Shown here one piece after another: positions 33,784 through 44,166 of a stretch of 64,000 nucleotides of DNA. Source of the DNA: Candidatus Thioglobus autotrophicus (lineage in GTDB: Bacteria; Pseudomonadota; Gammaproteobacteria; PS1; Pseudothioglobaceae); the NCBI RefSeq assembly GCF_001293165.1, contig NZ_CP010552.1, positions 1,240,001-1,304,000 on the forward strand, written 5' to 3'. Each line of letters begins with the position of its first letter. The stretch's first letter is position 1. The notes under the pieces are model-generated. The model saw only the letters and a list, made by a program, of their open reading frames with translations, did not search any database and was not told the origin of the DNA. Both the position numbers and the translations under genes were made by a program.

Positions 33784-33823
33784 GTCAGTCTATATTTAAA
33801 ATTGGTATTGGGTGGTCTTAACA

Positions 33824-34078
33824 ATGGAGCAGACTAAGGATAGTATTGATATTTGTGGTGTTTTAGTGCACACAAGTAAAGGTAAGGAAGAAGAGGTAAA
33901 AAATGCGCTCAGCATAATAGAAGGCGTCGAAGTGCATCATACAACACAAGATTCACGATTACTAGTCACCATTGAGCTCCAAGGTAGAAAACAAATTATG
34001 GATACCATGGGCAGTTTTAACGATATACCTTATGTAATTTCTACTGTATTAACTTACCAACACTCAGAAGAAGTGTAG
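33824..34078 (+). CDS. napD: Nap assembly chaperone NapD
   Basis: NapD binds the twin-arginine signal of NapA and holds back export until the cofactor is in place. The small ferredoxin-like protein (about 84 residues) has the typical start DICGVLVHTSKGKEEEV and VEVHHTTQDSRLLVTIE. ATG at 33824 and GTG at 33812 are both possible; no clear ribosome site decides. It is the first gene of the plus-strand nap cluster, 11 bp before napG. Confidence 0.85.
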   Translation: MEQTKDSIDICGVLVHTSKGKEEEVKNALSIIEGVEVHHTTQDSRLLVTIELQGRKQIMDTMGSFNDIPYVISTVLTYQHSEEV

Positions 34079-34089
34079 GCTTGGGCGGT

Positions 34090-34926
34090 ATGGCTATTTC
34101 TCGTCGAGAGTTTTTCATAAATTCTGCAAAATTAGCCACCACATCAGCCCTGATTGCAACCGGGCTCATCAGTTATTCAAAATATGCGTATGCAATTCCA
34201 GCAACTGCCATACGCCCGCCTGGCGCCTTAAAAGAAAAAGAGTTTATTTCAGCTTGTATTCGTTGCGGGTTGTGTGTCAATGATTGCCCATTTCCAACCT
34301 TATCGTTAGCAACTGAAAAAGACAATATAGCAATTGGCACTCCTTTCTTTACTGCGCGTAAAGCAGGATGCGAGATGTGCGACGATATTCCTTGCGTTAA
34401 GGCTTGCCCAACAGGTGCATTGGATAAAAGTCTAACGGATATTAATGATGCAAAAATGGGGCTTGCACGCATTGTCGACACCAAAGGCTGTATTGCTTAT
34501 CAAGGGTTAAGATGCGAGGTGTGTTTTAATATTTGCCCACTTCAGGGTAAAGCGATCACTGTAGAAATGCGACATAATGACCGCAGTGGTAAGCATGCGC
34601 TCTTTGTTCCAATGGTTAATTATGAGCATTGCACCGGTTGCGGAAAGTGTGAAGAGGCTTGTATTATGGAAGAAGCAGTTATCAAAGTATTGCCGACTCA
34701 TTTAGCCATGGGTAAGCGTCAAGCGCATTACAAAATTGGCTGGGAGGAAAAGCAAAAATCTGGTGGATCTCTGGTGTCCCCAGATATTGAGCATCAATAC
34801 AATCTTCCTAAAGGTAAAAAATATGACTTGCAAGGCGAAGGTTTGACAGATGTCAATACTTCTTTAGATAATGCACTGGATGCCTTGAACAATCTTAACC
34901 CGTTGTTTGATATTAAGAAAAAATGA
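34090..34926 (+). CDS. napG: Ferredoxin-type quinol dehydrogenase subunit NapG
   Basis: NapG carries four 4Fe-4S clusters and with NapH passes electrons from quinol to NapAB in the periplasm. A twin-arginine signal (SRREFF) is followed by a hydrophobic run. Cysteine groups CIRCGLCVNDCP, CEMCDDIPCVKACP, CEVCFNICP and CTGCGKCEEAC are all present. The ATG at 34090 is preferred to the upstream TTG. About 278 residues is usual. It overlaps napH by 4 bp. Confidence 0.93.
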   Translation: MAISRREFFINSAKLATTSALIATGLISYSKYAYAIPATAIRPPGALKEKEFISACIRCGLCVNDCPFPTLSLATEKDNIAIGTPFFTARKAGCEMCDDIPCVKACPTGALDKSLTDINDAKMGLARIVDTKGCIAYQGLRCEVCFNICPLQGKAITVEMRHNDRSGKHALFVPMVNYEHCTGCGKCEEACIMEEAVIKVLPTHLAMGKRQAHYKIGWEEKQKSGGSLVSPDIEHQYNLPKGKKYDLQGEGLTDVNTSLDNALDALNNLNPLFDIKKK

Positions 34927-35783
34927 AGAAAGTTAATATTTGCAAGGTAGTGGGTAAAGATGCCAAAGTCTCAAGAGGATGGCTAAGTAGTCACAAATAT
35001 CTAATCCTTCGCCGCCTATCGCAATTGTCTATTTTGGGGTTATTTTTATTAGGCCCATGGTTTGGCATTTGGATTGTCAAAGGCAACCTTTCTTCGAGCC
35101 TTACTTTGGATACACTGCCACTAACCGATCCCTTTGTTTTATTACAATCTGTATTTGCAGGGCATTCAATCGCCACTGATGCGCTCATTGGTGCCTTGAT
35201 TATTTTGGTGTTTTATTTATTAATTGGTGGGCGAGTTTTTTGCTCTTGGGTGTGCCCGGTAAATATCATAACGGACTCGGCATCCTGGCTTAGATGTAGA
35301 CTTGGCATTAAGACCAATAGTGGCGGCGTTTCCAGAAAAACGCGCTATTGGCTATTGGCCACTATTATGCTTGTATCCTTAATAACCGGATCCATTGTTT
35401 GGGAGTTGATAAACCCGGTTTCGATGCTGCACCGCGGTATTATTTTTGGCATGAGTTTTGGCTGGTTTTTAATTGTATTGTTGTTTTTATTTGATGTGTT
35501 TGTGGTTAAAAATGGCTGGTGCTCGCGGATATGTCCAATGGGAGCTTTTTATTCACTATTGGGTAAATTTTCAATACTAAGGGTAAATGCATCCCGTAGA
35601 GATGCGTGCACAGATTGCTTGGAATGCTTTATCGTCTGCCCTGAATCACAAGTTATTAACCCGGCATTAAAGGGTACAAAATCTCCCATTGTACTGGATA
35701 GTAATTGTACAAATTGCGGCAGATGTATTGATATTTGTGAGCCAAAAGTCTTTAGTTACTCCTCTCGAATAAAGAGAAATTAG
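34923..35783 (+). CDS. napH: Membrane quinol dehydrogenase subunit NapH
   Basis: NapH is the membrane partner of NapG, with four membrane segments and two 4Fe-4S sites near the C terminus (CTDCLECFIVCPE and CTNCGRCIDIC). The conserved CSWVCPVN and CSRICPMG motifs face the cytoplasmic side. At 286 residues it is a normal length. With no napC in the window, NapGH is probably the only local quinol-to-Nap route. Confidence 0.93.
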   Translation: MKKVNICKVVGKDAKVSRGWLSSHKYLILRRLSQLSILGLFLLGPWFGIWIVKGNLSSSLTLDTLPLTDPFVLLQSVFAGHSIATDALIGALIILVFYLLIGGRVFCSWVCPVNIITDSASWLRCRLGIKTNSGGVSRKTRYWLLATIMLVSLITGSIVWELINPVSMLHRGIIFGMSFGWFLIVLLFLFDVFVVKNGWCSRICPMGAFYSLLGKFSILRVNASRRDACTDCLECFIVCPESQVINPALKGTKSPIVLDSNCTNCGRCIDICEPKVFSYSSRIKRN

Positions 35784-35791
35784 TACAAAAC

Positions 35792-35831
35792 AACCTATGT
35801 TAATGAAATAAAACGTTGAAGCGTTTAAAGT
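35792..35831 (+). promoter_or_regulatory. napA promoter with AAC-N4-GTT site
   Basis: AACCTATGTT (35792-35801) is centred 29.5 bp from a weak -10-like TAAAGT (35826-35831). The napH-napA gap is 102 bp, so napABF can be started separately from napDGH. Confidence 0.5.
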
Positions 35832-35885
35832 TGTTAGTTCATTTTAATAGCTAATTTATTTCAATAAAATTTACGAGGAGAAGAG

Positions 35886-38429
35886 ATGGCCATCACAAGA
35901 AGAGAGTTCATTAAAAATAGTGCAATTAGCGCAACAGCTGCAACAGCTGGCGTAACCTTGCCAGGTATTGCCTTATCAAATTACAACGAAAGTGTTGACG
36001 GTATTAAGTGGGATAAAATTCCCTGTCGTTTTTGTGGCACTGGTTGTTCCGTTTTAGTAGGTACTAAAAATGGCAAAATGGTGGCCTCACAGGGTGATCC
36101 AGATGCACCAGTAAATAAAGGTCTTAACTGTGTTAAGGGTTATTTCTTATCAAAAATTATGTATGGTAAGGATCGACTTACTCAGCCTCTTCTTCGTAAG
36201 AAAAATGGTAAATATGATAAAAATGGTGATTTCACTCCAGTATCTTGGGATGAAGCATTTGACATCATGGAAGAAAAATGGAAGACCGCCCTTAATGTAT
36301 CTAAAGAAGAAAATAAAGGTAAGCCTGCTGACAAGCTAACCTCTCGTGTTGGTATGTTTGGCTCAGGACAGTGGACTGTTTGGGAGGGTTACGCAGCAAG
36401 TAAATTATTCAAAGCTGGCTTTAGATCAAATAATATCGATCCTAATGCTCGTCATTGTATGGCATCAGCAGTGGGCGCTTTTATTCGCGCCTTTGGTTCG
36501 GATGAGCCAATGGGTTGTTATGATGACTTCGAGCATGGCGATGCATTTGTGCTTTGGGGTTCGAATATGGCAGAGATGCATCCAATTTTATGGTCTCGTA
36601 TTTCTGATACTCGCCTCACCAAGAAAGACTCAGAGGTTCATGTGTTGTCAACATACGAGCATCGTTCATTTGAGTTAGCAGATAATGGCATGATCATGAA
36701 TCCGCAGTCAGATTTAGCGATTCTTAACTACATTGCAAATTACATTGTTGAAAATAAGGCTTATAACAAAGATTTTTTAAGAAAGCATGTTAATTTCAAC
36801 AAAACTCCAACTGATATTGGTTATGGATTGAGAAATGAACACCCACTGCAAAAAAATGCTAAAAATCCTAATAAAGGCAAACTGACTAAAATTAGTTGGG
36901 AAGAGTACAAAGAATCACTTAAGCCTTATACTTTAGAAAAAGCAGTTGAGATTTCAGGTGTTCCAGCAGAAAAATTAGAGCGTTTGGCTAAGCTTTATGC
37001 TGATCCAGATAAAAAAATCGTATCACTATGGACAATGGGCTTTAACCAGCATACTCGTGGTGTTTGGGTAAATGGTCTAATGTACAACGTACACCTATTA
37101 ACCGGTAAGATTTCTGAGCCTGGCAATGGTCCATTCTCACTAACTGGCCAACCTTCAGCTTGTGGTACTGCTCGTGAGGTAGGTACATTTGCTCACCGTC
37201 TACCTGCAGATTATGTCATCATGAAAAAATCACACCGTGATTTTGCTGAGAAAATTTGGAAGCTGCCAGAAGGCACAATTCCTGGTAAGAAAGGCTTGCA
37301 CGCGGTTGCACAAAGTAGAGCGCTTAAAGATGGCAAGTTGAATGTTTACTGGGTAATGTGTAATAACAACATGCAAGCCGGCCCTAATATCAACGATGAA
37401 ATGCTACCTGGTTGGAGAAATCCAGATAACTTTGTTGTAGTGTCAGACCCGTATCCAACAGTATCCGCACAAGCGGCTGATCTTATTTTGCCAACAGCAA
37501 TGTGGGCAGAAAAAGAAGGTGCATACGGTAATGCTGAAAGACGCACACAATTCTGGCGCCAGCAAGTTCAGGCACCAGGTAAAGCAAAATCTGATTTATG
37601 GCAGTTGGTTGAATTCTCCAAGAGATTTACAACGGACGACGCTTGGACAGATGAGTTGCTAGCTAAAAACCCAGAATATAAAGGTAAAAATTTATACGAT
37701 GTACTGTTTGCCAATGGTCAAGTTGATAAATTTGATAAGCAAGATATTACCGATGATCGTGGTAACAAATACGATAACAATGAAATGGATGATTTTGGCT
37801 ACTACATTCAAAAAGGATTGTTTGAAGAGTATCGCAGGTTCCAGCTTGAAGGGCCTAAAAAAGGCCATGAGCAGGCAGACTTCGATGTGTATCACAAGGC
37901 TAGAGGTTTGCGCTGGCCAGTGGTCAACGGCAAAGAAACGCTATGGCGTTACCGTGAAGGCTATGATCCATATGTTAAATCTGGTGAAGATGTTAGTTTT
38001 TATGGGAATAAAGATGGCAAGGCCAATATTATTACCGCACCATACGAGCCACCTGCAGAAGTGCCAGATGAAGAATTTGACTTATGGATGTCAACCGGAC
38101 GTGTACTTGAGCACTGGCATTCAGGCTCCATGACAAGACGTGTACCGGAGTTGTATCGCGCAGTGCCAGATGCGGTCATTTACATGCATCCAGATGATGC
38201 TAAATCACGTGGTTTAAGACGTGGTAAAAACGCTAAAGTTGTTTCTTCACGTGGTGAAATTGTTGCCATGATTGAAACCAAAGGCCGTAACAAGCCACCT
38301 AAGGGTTTGGTATTTGTACCGTGGTTCGATGCATCGCGCTTAGTTAATAAACTAATACTGGATGCGACTGATCCACTTTCTAAAGAAACGGACTACAAAA
38401 AGACGCCCGTTAAAATTGTTAAGGTATAG
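35886..38429 (+). CDS. napA: Periplasmic nitrate reductase catalytic subunit NapA
   Basis: Reduces nitrate to nitrite in the periplasm with a bis-MGD molybdenum site and one 4Fe-4S cluster. The twin-arginine signal TRREFIKNS is at the N terminus. The cluster motif [13 protein letters not shown] is at about residue 48, and [13 protein letters not shown] carries the molybdenum Cys. The 847-residue length is typical. CGAGGAG-type Shine-Dalgarno sequence precedes the ATG. napB follows after 12 bp. Confidence 0.98.
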
Positions 38430-38441
38430 GAGGAGATGAGC

Positions 38442-39044
38442 ATGAAAACTAAAATATTAGCACTAACAATTGCATCAGTTTTTACACTAGGATCTCAGGC
38501 TAATTTCTTTGGCAGTGGCCATAACTGGAATAATCCATTTTCAACAGTCATTGAAAATATTAAAGAGGTGGCTGAAGAGGTTAAAGAGGTTGCAACTGAT
38601 ACGGTAGATTCGGTTAAAGATGCTACAGAGGTGGTGGTTGATACAGTCACTGATGTGGCTAGTTCAGCAGCCGATGTTGTTGACGTTGCTTCTCTTCGTG
38701 GTACTCATGTACTGGATGATTTGTCAATTGCACCAGATAAAATTAAGTGGATTAAGAAAAATGTTGAGTTTGAAAGAAATTATGATGATCAGCCGCCACT
38801 AATTCCACACAAAACGGATGGCATGACAATAAATCTTAAAAAGAATAAATGTTTGAGTTGCCATAGTGATGAGAATTATAAAGAAGAAGATTCACCAAAA
38901 ATGTCAAGCACACACTTCTTTACTCGTGATGAAACACGCTTACCTGAAATGTCGCCAAGACGCTATTTTTGCCTACAGTGTCATGTTCCTCAGGCTAAGT
39001 TAGATCCTTTAGTTGACAGTAACTTTGTTAACTTAGATGAGTAG
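38442..39044 (+). CDS. napB: Diheme cytochrome NapB with long N-terminal helical insert
   Basis: NapB passes electrons to NapA through two c hemes at CLSCH and CLQCH. The ATG at 38442 is preferred because AGGAGG at 38428-38433 is 8 bp away, while the in-frame ATG at 38436 is only 2 bp from it. After the signal peptide about 50 extra residues appear, rich in Val, Glu, Asp and Thr (IKEVAEEVKEV, VDTVTDVASSAADVVDV), predicted as an amphipathic helix. Usual NapB proteins are about 150 residues; this one has about 200. The insert might bind a partner or membrane. Confidence 0.9.
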   Translation: MKTKILALTIASVFTLGSQANFFGSGHNWNNPFSTVIENIKEVAEEVKEVATDTVDSVKDATEVVVDTVTDVASSAADVVDVASLRGTHVLDDLSIAPDKIKWIKKNVEFERNYDDQPPLIPHKTDGMTINLKKNKCLSCHSDENYKEEDSPKMSSTHFFTRDETRLPEMSPRRYFCLQCHVPQAKLDPLVDSNFVNLDE

Positions 39045-39060
39045 CATTTGAGTGAGTGTC

Positions 39061-39528
39061 ATGACCAGAGCCCAACTCCTGCGAGGGGGGTGGGGCTCAA
39101 ATAAGAAATCTGTTGTTAGGCCGCCATGGGCTAAGGACGAGGCTTTGTTTACAGATTTGTGTAATCGGTGTGGTGCTTGTATAGACGCATGTCCTGAGAA
39201 GATTATCACAACAGGATCTGGAAAGTTTCCAGTGATTGATTTTAGTAAAGGTGGCTGTAGCTTTTGCAAAAAATGTGTGACATCTTGTCAGTATGACGCT
39301 TTTAGTAAGGTCGATGCACCTTGGAATTTGACGGCCAATATTAAAGACAGTTGTCTGTCTAAAATTGGCGTGGTTTGCCAGTCATGCTCTGAGGTGTGCG
39401 AGCACGGAGCTATTGAATTTAGCCTGCAAATGGGAGGTGTGCCACAAATCGCAATGGACACCAGCCATTGTAATGGTTGTGGTGAGTGTGTTTCAGTTTG
39501 CCCAAAGAGCGCCATACAATTAAATTAA
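39061..39528 (+). CDS. napF: Ferredoxin-type protein NapF
   Basis: NapF is a cytoplasmic protein with several 4Fe-4S clusters that is thought to help mature NapA. It has about 156 residues with cysteine groups CNRCGACIDACP, CSFCKKCVTSC, CQSCSEVC and CNGCGECVSVCP. The ATG at 39061 or the GTG at 39052 may start it. It is the last gene of the nap cluster, and soxY follows after 27 bp. Confidence 0.9.
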   Translation: MTRAQLLRGGWGSNKKSVVRPPWAKDEALFTDLCNRCGACIDACPEKIITTGSGKFPVIDFSKGGCSFCKKCVTSCQYDAFSKVDAPWNLTANIKDSCLSKIGVVCQSCSEVCEHGAIEFSLQMGGVPQIAMDTSHCNGCGECVSVCPKSAIQLN

Positions 39529-39555: not shown

Positions 39556-39990
39556 ATGAATAGAAGAGCTGCTATAAAAATGTTAATGGGTGGTGCAGTT
39601 GCGCTATCTGGAATATTGCCGTTAAGTGCAATTGCCAACTTCATGGGTAATTTAAAAGCCGATGATGCAATCAGTAAAATTACCGGTGGAAAGCACACAG
39701 CCTCAGCTGATTTAAAGCTTAAAACCCCAAAGTTGGCTGAGAATGGATCACAAGTCCCAGTAACAGTTGATGCAACTGCATTAACAGGTGTTAAAAGTGT
39801 TTTTTTGATTGTTCATGAAAATCTTAAGCCGGTGGCTATGCGTGTAGATTTTGAATCTGCAGATGTTGCTGCTTTTGCCAGTTTCAGAGTGAAGATGGGC
39901 AAGCCTACTAAAGTTACGGCCATTGCGCATACTGCAAACGGCTTTGTAACGGCTAATGGCATTACTAAAGTTACCAAAGGTGGCTGTTAA
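39556..39990 (+). CDS. soxY: Sulfur-carrier protein SoxY
   Basis: SoxY carries sulfur intermediates covalently on a C-terminal cysteine in the periplasm. The 144-residue protein has a twin-arginine-like signal (NRRAAIKMLMGG) followed by a hydrophobic run. The C terminus reads KGGC and then stops, whereas SoxY usually ends in GGCGG, so the last two glycines are missing and the carrier Cys is the final residue. AAAGGAG precedes the ATG. soxZ follows after 21 bp. No soxAX, soxB or soxCD genes are in the window. Confidence 0.93.
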   Translation: MNRRAAIKMLMGGAVALSGILPLSAIANFMGNLKADDAISKITGGKHTASADLKLKTPKLAENGSQVPVTVDATALTGVKSVFLIVHENLKPVAMRVDFESADVAAFASFRVKMGKPTKVTAIAHTANGFVTANGITKVTKGGC

Positions 39991-40011: not shown

Positions 40012-40320
40012 ATGGCAAAAAAAATTAAAGCAAGAGCAAAAATGAAAAGCGGCCTTATTGAGGTTAAATATAAAATTACACACCCAATGGAAACTGGACG
40101 AAGAAAAGACAAGGCGGGAAATATTGTTGCTGAAGAATACATTAATCACATCACGATTTTAAAAAATGGTAAAGAGATGTTAAGACTATCTCCTAACTCT
40201 ACAGTATCTGCAAATCCGTACTTATTTGTTAAATTAAATGGCGCTAAAGGTGATGAAATTACCTTGTCATGGGTGAGTAATACTGGTGAAAAAAATTCAT
40301 CCACAACCAAAGTTAAATAA
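40012..40320 (+). CDS. soxZ: Sulfur-carrier partner SoxZ
   Basis: SoxZ forms the stable dimer with SoxY on which sulfur oxidation takes place. It has 102 residues with conserved KARAKMKSGLIEVKYKITHPM and the C-terminal SWVSNTGE segment. There is no signal peptide, as usual: it is exported bound to SoxY. An AGGAG site is upstream. A perfect hairpin lies just after the stop. Confidence 0.95.
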   Translation: MAKKIKARAKMKSGLIEVKYKITHPMETGRRKDKAGNIVAEEYINHITILKNGKEMLRLSPNSTVSANPYLFVKLNGAKGDEITLSWVSNTGEKNSSTTKVK

Positions 40321-40337
40321 CCAGTTAAATTATGTTT

Positions 40338-40381
40338 ACTAATAAACCCTTACTGATTAATATTGGTAAGGGTTTATTAGT
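40338..40381. repeat. Perfect 16-bp inverted repeat after soxZ
   Basis: ACTAATAAACCCTTAC (40338-40353) pairs perfectly with GTAAGGGTTTATTAGT (40366-40381). No T-run follows, so it is more likely an mRNA-stabilising or processing hairpin than a full terminator. Confidence 0.55.
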
Positions 40382-40414
40382 ATCTGGATGAATATAAAAA
40401 AAAGGGGGAGTAGC

Positions 40415-40882
40415 ATGAATACCATTATTAAAATTGGCATTATTCTAGGTGGAGGTGTTGGTGCTTATGGCATGGGGTCTTTTATGTACAACATGGGCCA
40501 TGATATGACTAACATGACAAAATCTGTTGGGCAAATGACTCAAGACGTCCACTCTATGGCAAGGAACATGAATGGCATGGCTGGAAACATGATGCAAATG
40601 GCTCAAAGCATGGTGGAAGGCCAAAAGAAAATGGGTGATGATTTTTCAAATGTTGCTAAAGATATGAATGTTATGACAAGATCGATGGCCTCAATGGGTA
40701 ATGATATGCATAAGATGGGTGGTCAAATTGCACAAATGAATGACAATATTAAAAACATGAATGGATCAATGGCTCAAATGAGTAACGATATGTCAATTAT
40801 GAATGGATCGATGTCAGGTATGCGTTACGATATTAATAAATTTACCAAACCTGAAAATATCATGATGCCTTGGCTGAGATAG
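40415..40882 (+). CDS. Methionine-rich membrane-anchored coiled protein
   Basis: I do not recognise this family. The ATG at 40415 follows an AGGGGGAG site. The 155-residue product has a single N-terminal membrane segment (IIKIGIILGGGVGAYGMG) and then a long helical region with Met about every 3-4 residues, for example MTNMTKSVGQMTQDV. I count 31 Met and no Cys, so 20% Met. Such spacing would put Met along one face of a coiled coil. Met clusters can bind copper or be oxidised. It sits between soxYZ and a diheme cytochrome, so a role in periplasmic sulfur or redox chemistry is possible but not shown. Confidence 0.75.
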   Translation: MNTIIKIGIILGGGVGAYGMGSFMYNMGHDMTNMTKSVGQMTQDVHSMARNMNGMAGNMMQMAQSMVEGQKKMGDDFSNVAKDMNVMTRSMASMGNDMHKMGGQIAQMNDNIKNMNGSMAQMSNDMSIMNGSMSGMRYDINKFTKPENIMMPWLR

Positions 40883-40891
40883 GAGTTGAAT

Positions 40892-41515
40892 ATGAATAAC
40901 AAAACCTCACTAAAAATAACTGCATTATTTTTAACACTCACATTCCAAGTGCAGGCATCTGATCCTGTTAATGGGCAAATTATTGCCGCTAAGTCATGCG
41001 ATCGATGCCATGGGGAGTTTGGCATTAGTGATGATACTGATACGCCTCATTTGGCATCACAAAGTGTTAACTATATCGTTAAGCAGTTAAAAGATTACAA
41101 GAGCAAGGCTCGCAAAGATAAGAATATGTACAAGCGTGCTAAAAAGTTAAACAATAAGCAAATGCTCGATGTTGGCGCTTGGTATGAATCTCAATTGTTA
41201 CCTGAACAAAATCCTACTCTAAGGGAGGCAATTAAAACACCTGCACTAATAAATAAAGGTGACACCAATCGCGGTATTCCGCCGTGTGATTTGTGTCATG
41301 GAAAAGATGGAAAAACTTCAATTGGATCAACGCCAGTGTTGGCAGGTCAGCAGTTTGGTTATTTACTTTCTACTATGGAGTATTTTGCAGACGGGTCTCG
41401 AAACAATGATCCAGGCGGCGCTGTGCAAAGCATTATTAGGAAGTTATCAGATGTTGAGATACAAGCGTTGGCAAAATATTATTCACATTTAGGTGGAACC
41501 GAGGTTGAGGAGTAA
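40892..41515 (+). CDS. Diheme cytochrome c (c553/c4 type)
   Basis: A periplasmic electron carrier with a signal peptide (LKITALFLTLTFQVQA) and two heme sites, CDRCH near residue 37 and CDLCH near residue 133, each with a downstream Met region. Two tandem cytochrome domains of this size are typical of c4/c553 proteins. The ATG at 40892 is preferred to the TTG at 40886 because it is better spaced from TAGGAG. It probably takes electrons from sulfur oxidation to an oxidase or to nitrate reduction; the partner is not shown. Confidence 0.88.
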   Translation: MNNKTSLKITALFLTLTFQVQASDPVNGQIIAAKSCDRCHGEFGISDDTDTPHLASQSVNYIVKQLKDYKSKARKDKNMYKRAKKLNNKQMLDVGAWYESQLLPEQNPTLREAIKTPALINKGDTNRGIPPCDLCHGKDGKTSIGSTPVLAGQQFGYLLSTMEYFADGSRNNDPGGAVQSIIRKLSDVEIQALAKYYSHLGGTEVEE

Positions 41516-41520
41516 AACCC

Positions 41521-41991
41521 CTACCAAGTGACATTCTCTATTAAAGATTGAATGAGCTTATTAGCTTTAATAGTGGGCGCTTCTGATTGTTGATCTAGTG
41601 GCTTTAGCTTTGTATACACCAGATGAGTTTGCTTAGAATTGTTACTTAGTGTGTATAGCGCAATTTTAAAAGGACAAGCTGAAATATTTAAATGATTAGC
41701 CAGTACCAATTGATGAGATATGCTGGCAGAGCAAAATTCAATAATTTCTGCCTGGTGATAAATTTCTTTTGCATTCGATATACTGTCTTTGGTGCGATTC
41801 AACATGTCACTCGCATGATATATTTTAGAGATATTAAGCGCTCTTTGTTCAATGCCATCAATCAGATTACTGCGAATATCTTCATAGGTGTTGTCAACAG
41901 ACGTACTGATAACCGTATTAGCCCATGTAGTATTTGAAAAATAAATACCAGTAATGAGTAATAAAAGTTTTGCCGTTATATTTGTTTTCAA
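41521..41991 (-). CDS. DUF302-family exported protein
   Basis: A 156-residue protein with a signal peptide (LLLLITGIYFSNTTWA) and the DUF302 pattern near EFCSASISHQLV and CPFKIALYTL. The function of DUF302 is unknown; members are often near sulfur or redox genes. It is convergent with the diheme cytochrome and divergent from fccA, so it could use promoter elements in the gap upstream of fccA. Confidence 0.7.
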   Translation of the reverse strand: MKTNITAKLLLLITGIYFSNTTWANTVISTSVDNTYEDIRSNLIDGIEQRALNISKIYHASDMLNRTKDSISNAKEIYHQAEIIEFCSASISHQLVLANHLNISACPFKIALYTLSNNSKQTHLVYTKLKPLDQQSEAPTIKANKLIQSLIENVTW

Positions 41992-42264: not shown

Positions 42265-42855
42265 ATGATGAAAGATACAATCATTAAATCTACACTACTA
42301 GTTGCCACATTGGCGTTAGGTTCGTATGCCCAAGCTGCGCCATCTGGCCAAGCTTTAGGCTACACATGTGCAGGTTGTCATGGTACCAATGGTGCCAGTA
42401 CAGGTAATGCTATTCCATCTATCGCAGGTTTATCTGAAACCTACATGGTAGAAACAATGAATGCATATAAGTCAGGTGATAAAGCTTCTACCATTATGGG
42501 TAGAATCGCTAAAGGTTATTCTGAAGAAGATATTGAAAATATGGCAGGTTTTTTTGCTGAGCAAGAGGTACACAAAAACACTAACCAATCTTTCGATGCA
42601 GCCAAAGCCAATGCAGGGCAGGCGTTACACGAGAAATATTGTGATAAGTGTCATACTGAAGGCGGTACTGTAGCAGATGATGATGCAGGTCAATTATCGG
42701 GTAATGCTAAGCTATTTATGCAATATTCATTGGCTGATTTCCATGATGGATCGCGCGACATGGAAAAGAAAATGGCTAAAAAAATGAAGAGAATGATGAA
42801 GAAAGATTCGGATGCATTCGATAAGCTTGTCAATTACTACACAAGTGGTCAATAG
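42265..42855 (+). CDS. fccA: Flavocytochrome c sulfide dehydrogenase, cytochrome subunit
   Basis: The diheme subunit accepts electrons from FccB after sulfide oxidation in the periplasm. The 196-residue protein has a signal peptide ending SYAQAA and heme sites CAGCH and CDKCH. The C-terminal region is rich in Lys and Met (KKMAKKMKRMMKK). fccB follows after 12 bp with an AGGAG site. The two form one operon under the AAC-N4-GTT promoter. Confidence 0.9.
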   Translation: MMKDTIIKSTLLVATLALGSYAQAAPSGQALGYTCAGCHGTNGASTGNAIPSIAGLSETYMVETMNAYKSGDKASTIMGRIAKGYSEEDIENMAGFFAEQEVHKNTNQSFDAAKANAGQALHEKYCDKCHTEGGTVADDDAGQLSGNAKLFMQYSLADFHDGSRDMEKKMAKKMKRMMKKDSDAFDKLVNYYTSGQ

Positions 42856-42867
42856 AGGAGAATACTG

Positions 42868-44166
42868 ATGAGTAAACAAAATAGAAGAAGTTTTTTAAAG
42901 ACATTAGGTCTGGGTGCGACAGCTGCAACTGCAGCAACATATGCGCCATTTGCAATTGGCGGCTCTAGCAAGAAAGTGGTTGTGATTGGTGGTGGTATGG
43001 GTGGTGCAGTTGCCGCAAAATACATTCGTATGATGGATAAGTCTGTTGAAGTTACGTTAATTGAAGCAAACGAAAATTACTTTACCTGCTTTGGCAGTAA
43101 TGAAGTATTAAGTGGTGAGCGCACCATGGATTCAATTAAGTTTGGCTATGACGGTCTTAAGGGTCATGGCGTTAACGTAGTAATTGACAAAGTTATTGAT
43201 ATTGATGCAAGCGGAAGACGCGTTAAGACAGCAAGCGGTCGTAGCTTTAATTATGATCGTTGTATCGTCTCTCCTGGTGTCTCTTTCAGATACGACAAAA
43301 TTGATGGCTATGATGAAAGTGTGGCAAATACCAAGATTACACATGCTTGGAAAGCGGGTCCACAGACAGCTTTATTGCGTGATCAAATCCAATCAATGAG
43401 AAAGGGTGGAACAGTCATCATTTCTGCGCCACCTAATCCATTCCGTTGTCCTCCAGGGCCTTATGAGCGTACCGCACAAATTGCTCATTACTTGAAGCAT
43501 AACAACCCTACAGCTAAAATTTTAGTTTTGGATGATAAGGAAAAATTCTCAAAGTTTGGATTATTTACTGCTGGCTGGAAAAAGCATTACGGCTATGGCA
43601 CGGACAACTCTATGATTGAATGGGTGAAAGGCTCTGCTGGTGGTAAGATTGAATCAGTTGATGTTGCTGGTATGACATTATCGGGTGAAGTTGACGACTA
43701 TAAAGGTGATGTAATTAATATTATCCCTGCTCAAAAAGCAGGGCATATTGCTCATGTTACTGGCTTAACTAATGATTCTGGCTGGTGCCCTATTGAAGGC
43801 AAAACTTTCGAATCAACCATTCACAAAAATATCCATGTGATTGGTGATTCAGCTATTCAGTCTCCACTACCTAAGTCTGGCTACGCAGCCAACTCAGAAG
43901 GCAAAGTGTGTGCAGCAGCAGTGGTTGCAATGCTAAATGGTGATAAAATTCCAGATCCTTCATACGTTAACACTTGTTACTCAGTTATTGCGCCAGGCGA
44001 CGGCATTTCTGTTGCGATGGTTTATAACTATGCAAATGGAAAAATTAACAAGGTTAAAGGCTCTGGTGGTTTAACACCAGGCAAGTTTGATGCCAAAGCT
44101 CGTGCAAGAGAGCAGCAAAATGGCTATTCATGGTTTGATAATATCACCAATGATACATTTGGCTAA
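42868..44166 (+). CDS. fccB: Flavocytochrome c sulfide dehydrogenase, flavoprotein subunit
   Basis: Oxidises sulfide to zero-valent sulfur with covalent FAD in the periplasm. A twin-arginine signal NRRSFLKTLGLG is at the N terminus. The FAD motif VVIGGGMGGAVAAKYI follows. The two redox cysteines appear in PFRCPPGPYER and NTCYSVI. The length of 432 residues is normal. Export as a folded flavoprotein needs the Tat system. A terminator lies after the stop. Confidence 0.95.
   Translation: MSKQNRRSFLKTLGLGATAATAATYAPFAIGGSSKKVVVIGGGMGGAVAAKYIRMMDKSVEVTLIEANENYFTCFGSNEVLSGERTMDSIKFGYDGLKGHGVNVVIDKVIDIDASGRRVKTASGRSFNYDRCIVSPGVSFRYDKIDGYDESVANTKITHAWKAGPQTALLRDQIQSMRKGGTVIISAPPNPFRCPPGPYERTAQIAHYLKHNNPTAKILVLDDKEKFSKFGLFTAGWKKHYGYGTDNSMIEWVKGSAGGKIESVDVAGMTLSGEVDDYKGDVINIIPAQKAGHIAHVTGLTNDSGWCPIEGKTFESTIHKNIHVIGDSAIQSPLPKSGYAANSEGKVCAAAVVAMLNGDKIPDPSYVNTCYSVIAPGDGISVAMVYNYANGKINKVKGSGGLTPGKFDAKARAREQQNGYSWFDNITNDTFG

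Follow-up and report, generated by a model that had tools for sequence, protein, structure and literature searches.

The open reading frame at positions 40415..40882 (+ strand) of the window, the whole stretch of 64,000 nucleotides analysed here, encodes a Met-zipper membrane protein of 155 amino acids (stop codon TAG) which is genuine, conserved and unnamed, and which has a remarkable core. The assignment is based on the open reading frame, the periodicity of Met and the homologues. As far as alignments can tell, the protein forms one branch of a superfamily that has not been described before, whose members combine a membrane helix with a heptad rod and a Pro-broken aromatic tail, and this superfamily tracks the gene set for the oxidation of sulfide and stored sulfur (FCSD, Sox and dsrA). 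Our favoured reading, plausible rather than probable, is that the protein may be anchored in the inner membrane and serve sulfur oxidation as a tether or spacer, a periplasmic coiled coil in which Met packs the core.

The start of the gene is backed by a ribosome-binding-like GGGGGA immediately 5' of it, and an alternative in-frame ATG is located at 40388. The protein contains 31 Met (20.0%) and no Cys, the runner-up among the window's open reading frames of at least 100 amino acids having a Met content of 9%; the binomial probability of such an enrichment against the window background of 2.8% is 9e-18. Met recurs with a period of 3.5 (best value 3.52), and none of 5000 random placements gave an equally strong signal. 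Between residues 31 and 143, Met occupies 24 of the 33 core (a/d) positions and 1 of the 80 non-core positions. The non-random 20% Met content claimed by an earlier note on this DNA, its single membrane segment and its lack of Cys are thus borne out by the 155-residue sequence, and the spacing of 3-4 residues that the note had described over some 110 residues was found as a 3-4 heptad repeat across about 112. The cores of long heptad rods are usually made of Leu, Ile, Val and Ala, and it is unusual for Met to make up about 70% of the core, as it does over the 28 homologues; a natural rod of this kind would offer a clean test of the role of Met in coiled coils.

Three parts can be distinguished along the chain. 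The N-terminal membrane segment comprises about residues 2-24 (40418..40486, +), as read from the sequence, and an N-in/C-out orientation is suggested by the charges and by the long N-terminal tails of relatives. The heptad rod spans residues 31-143 (40505..40843, +), according to the 3-4 core spacing, the homologues and an AlphaFold2 helix, and is followed by the conserved C-terminal tail, residues 139-155 (DINKFTKPENIMMPWLR; 40829..40879, +), defined by the alignment of superfamily members, among which Pro146 is invariant. The core spacing is unbroken save for one 4-4 stutter at residues 69-73-77, within a conserved EGQKKMGDDF. The AlphaFold2 model consists of a single helix from residue 3 to 144, broken before Pro146, with a mean pLDDT of 74. 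A hydrophobic a/d heptad core was found together with changes of rod length by whole heptads, and these differences of -7, +7 and +14 residues among homologues support a coiled coil. Since the Met period lies at 3.515-3.525 in all 28 homologues, a left-handed supercoil fits better than a helix lying on a surface, which has a period of about 3.6-3.67. The Met-lined coiled coil that the earlier note placed in the periplasm is thus supported as a heptad Met core on one membrane anchor; the periplasmic side is the conditional part, for the C-terminal rod would be periplasmic to judge from the basic residues that precede the membrane helix, the acidic ones that follow it and the relatives' N-terminal tails.

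Conservation was analysed in a set of 28 homologues with identities down to 39%. Core Met is retained in 79-100% of them while identity in the non-core part of the helix drops to 21%, and in most homologues Leu substitutes Met at one core position only (residue 101). The stretch M20-F23-M24-M27-M31 at the membrane exit is invariant. At the DNA level, 19-24 of the 24 core ATG codons are retained even though, with the near-identical L052 set aside, 42-90% of the third bases in matching four-fold codons are different, which indicates purifying selection on the Met core. The non-Met core residues V38, V45, G69, I105, I140 and F143 are retained about as strictly as core Met, suggesting packing rather than Met chemistry alone. 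Searches of genomes and contigs located homologues in Thioglobaceae, the Solemya velum gill symbiont, the vent bacterium Milos-ODIII6 and other gammaproteobacterial families, the closest named one belonging to a Candidatus Thioglobus bin. Three copies occur in one metagenome bin, on three contigs (L079, L080 and L082). Copies decayed by deletion, frameshift or stops were also observed (L066:9104-9351, L065:9550-9840 and L063:2294-2706), one of them adjoining remnants of nap genes.

The earlier note knew of no named family for the protein, and none emerged. The window protein reaches no curated cut-off of Pfam or NCBIfam, the best scores being 29.4 bits for DUF1664 (cut-off 34.6) and 23.4 for IcmG/DotF (cut-off 200). 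The matches to Pfam, NCBIfam and PHROGs were rejected as coiled-coil noise; DUF1664 and DUF948, among the top Pfam scores, are coiled-coil-like and show only generic repeat similarity below their cut-offs. A profile search against PDB sequences returned generic coiled coils only, Foldseek with the helix model gave no PDB match, the viral contigs scanned contained no relative, and literature searches found no Met-rich protein of sulfur oxidisers. The long heptad rods of Lpp (Braun lipoprotein) and of methyl-accepting chemotaxis proteins show weak profile similarity, but they differ in having conventional cores, no Met zipper and no common tail motif. More distant proteins have the same layout of membrane helix and heptad rod, followed by a tail in which the Pro is invariant (17 of 17 superfamily members) and which mostly ends in an aromatic residue. 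The C-terminal tail and the membrane-proximal region are thus shared. Comparison with other subfamilies by hhalign gave a probability of 99.3 and an E value of 2.6e-20, scores which heptad repeats inflate, and the tail scores rank in the top 0.3-3% of 1508 open reading frame tails, most of the higher-scoring ones being also member-like. One other subfamily ends in FTSPxNYMRNM, and in a second structure model, of an outer subfamily (mean pLDDT 67.5), the long helix is likewise interrupted close to the tail.

The genome that carries the gene has 1,512,449 bases in one contig and, judging by that closest named homologue, is of the Thioglobus/SUP05 kind. The sox/cytochrome cluster to which the gene had been assigned was recovered as a series, all on the + strand save where stated. 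It begins upstream with napD, G, H, A, B and F for periplasmic nitrate reductase (33812..39528; napD and napH are placed by position and sequence only), followed by soxY (39556..39990), which ends in KGGC-stop and not in GGCGG, and soxZ (40012..40320), a family match. Between soxZ and the Met-zipper gene lies a long, strong hairpin (40337..40382) with no T run, for which the folding energy is -29.8 kcal/mol over 40315-40420 (z -5.2); L052 shows base changes in both of its arms. Downstream, a c-type cytochrome gene (40892..41515) starts 9 bases past the Met-zipper stop, and the two genes probably share a transcript. A DUF302-like gene below the Pfam cut-off (41521-41991, - strand), similar genes of which persist in the relatives' cluster, separates it from a second c-type cytochrome (42265..42855; PdsA-like, below cut-off), which stands beside the flavoprotein of flavocytochrome c sulfide dehydrogenase (fccB-like, 42868..44166; family match), itself followed by a Crp/Fnr regulator gene. 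The KGGC-stop ending of soxY, which lacks the last two Gly of the common GGCGG arm, is also present in L052, L053 and L066, and the relatives' other soxY set (L054 and L057) ends in GGCGG.

The search for homologues near soxYZ gave a divided result. The homologue adjoins soxYZ in G277 (L125), lies in one genus next to a psiE-like gene and near a soxYZA locus (L054-L057), and adjoins fccAB in G192 (L119); in G035 and G039 its neighbours are fcc and genes for multihaem proteins or cytochromes. Against this, the neighbours of several distant homologues are unrelated (L087 of the S. velum symbiont, L064 and L122). Gene and cluster can also be lost separately: G005 retains nap-soxYZ-fcc with a decayed Met-zipper copy, and in G018 the gene is still in place although nap, sox and fcc are missing from its surroundings and the genome (81% complete) gives no FCSD match. 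Strict functional coupling to these neighbours is therefore rejected, and for the same reason the gene looks accessory. In G027 no soxYZ is present between napF and the Met-zipper gene.

The relation with sulfur oxidation is seen in the distribution. A survey of 369 genomes of the class, with profile matches at E 1e-8, yielded 22 carriers. FCSD is found in 20 of these carriers and in 115 of the 369 genomes overall (P 3e-9), dsrA in 19 and in 117 (P 7e-8), and SoxZ in 21 and in 197 (P 2e-5), all three probabilities ignoring phylogeny. The 347 genomes without a match are rich in coiled coils, from which it follows that the profile does not simply detect heptads. Among 95 relatives, the presence of the superfamily and that of dsrA agree in 84, and both are missing from the ten genomes of the sister genus g3. 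Within Thioglobaceae, the Met branch has 11 carriers, of which 7 have FCSD, as against 5 of 40 others (phylogeny again ignored).

On the basis of these data we propose the following working model for the tether or spacer. The N-terminal hydrophobic segment would anchor the protein in the inner membrane, and the chains would associate through the Met core to give a rod of about 16-17 nm projecting from it. The aromatic tail, broken by Pro, may dock the far end of the rod on a partner. Least certain are the last two steps, namely that the rod might organise periplasmic sulfur work against the membrane, through either the sulfide- or thiosulfate-oxidising proteins or the sulfur globule, and that Met could have been chosen because it gives a soft, Cys-free hydrophobic core which polysulfides leave unmodified, and not for the sake of binding a metal. 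Ca. Thioglobus autotrophicus stores sulfur in globules in the periplasm, and four putative sgp genes are listed for it (PMC6509183). SgpD of Allochromatium vinosum is likewise a candidate periplasmic coiled coil of a sulfur oxidiser and is dispensable, but its signal peptide is cleaved, its prolines are regularly spaced and it is almost confined to Chromatiaceae (PMC10386293); on these described features SgpD was set aside.

The strongest rival is a structural rod for which it would be irrelevant that the core is Met, since any similarly shaped hydrophobic residue could take its place, the abundance of Met reflecting drift within a coiled-coil family whose role in the envelope is not specific to sulfur; we regard this as possible, on the doubtful side. 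The outer subfamilies have mixed Met/Ile/Leu/Val cores with nearly the same period (L036, for example, has 7 M against 11 I, 7 L and 9 V), and the subfamily located between ileS-aroB and gatCAB occurs in almost every dsrA-carrying member of Thioglobaceae that was sampled, among them some with genomes of 1.0 Mb. The host's own second superfamily member (L032:8335-8919, genome about 242334-242918) lies between aroB and gatC. The retention of core ATG codons amid scrambled synonymous sites and the rarity of Leu in place of Met argue against drift, and most genomes without dsrA also lack the superfamily. The earlier note had considered that relatives keeping the heptads with Leu or Ile in place of Met would speak against a Met-specific role; the answer is split, for the true homologues keep Met, whereas the outer subfamilies do keep heptads with many Ile, Leu and Val.

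A role in copper binding, put forward in the earlier note, is improbable. Oligomeric Met layers would here hold or pass Cu(I), for which the Met triads of Ctr1 offer a parallel, and such an array would agree with the MxxM and MxxxM spacing, which runs on without a gap and takes in the invariant stretch where the chain leaves the membrane. Nevertheless, in the neighbourhoods examined, mostly by visual reading or BLAST against the window, no gene for copper chaperones, for the assembly of oxidases or for efflux of the Cus/Cop type was recognised, the distribution follows sulfur genes, and the core Val, Ile, Phe and Gly are about as invariant as Met.

To the other chemical role in that note, a periplasmic oxidant sink, we assign an equally low probability. 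The protein would here resemble MrpX with its sulfoxide reductase. MrpX, the Met-rich periplasmic peptide of Azospira associated with Melnyk et al. 2015, reportedly works with YedY1/MsrP; we know of no conserved heptad core or anchor in it, and the similarity with the Met-zipper protein lies in the richness in Met and the periplasmic location, predicted for the latter. The very high Met content would suit a sink, MsrA is present in 14 of 16 carriers and MsrB in 15, and the MsrAB proteins of G277, G376 and G304 have an N-terminal hydrophobic segment. However, pairing with MsrP was rejected in view of the absence of that molybdoenzyme family (PF00174) from 13 of the 16 carriers, G000 included; no export signal was seen in MsrA or MsrB of the host genome, both MsrA proteins of which start at or near the catalytic domain with no evident signal peptide. 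Furthermore, the Mets lie in the core and are not exposed, and a sink would not need their strict positional conservation.

The weakest alternative, a sulfur globule coat whose Met stripe would rest flat against zero-valent sulfur, is very improbable: it draws on the co-occurrence with dsrA and on G026 and G032, where a gene of a related subfamily is the second gene after one for an exported Gly/Asn/Pro/Met-rich protein of globule-protein-like composition (L039:6841-7311 and L041:3989-4462), but that neighbour matches no family model, the period of 3.52 and the whole-heptad indels fit a supercoil and not a flat helix, and the Met-zipper protein is membrane-anchored, unlike SgpA-D, which have signal peptides, that of SgpD being cleaved (PMC10386293).

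Returning to the tether or spacer, its broadest extension would be that the methionine zipper is a new kind of coiled coil and the superfamily a group of membrane tethers for sulfur storage and sulfide oxidation, whose thioether core meets zero-valent sulfur, Cu(I) or oxidants; we consider this unlikely. In Gammaproteobacteria the superfamily accompanies the FCSD/Sox/rDsr pathway without having been named, and it may supply a missing piece in the holding and transfer of periplasmic sulfur. Its forms also occur in another class of the phylum, where several members (L131, L136, L137, L138 and L139) adjoin a gene for a ParA-like ATPase, as if the latter positioned the membrane protein.
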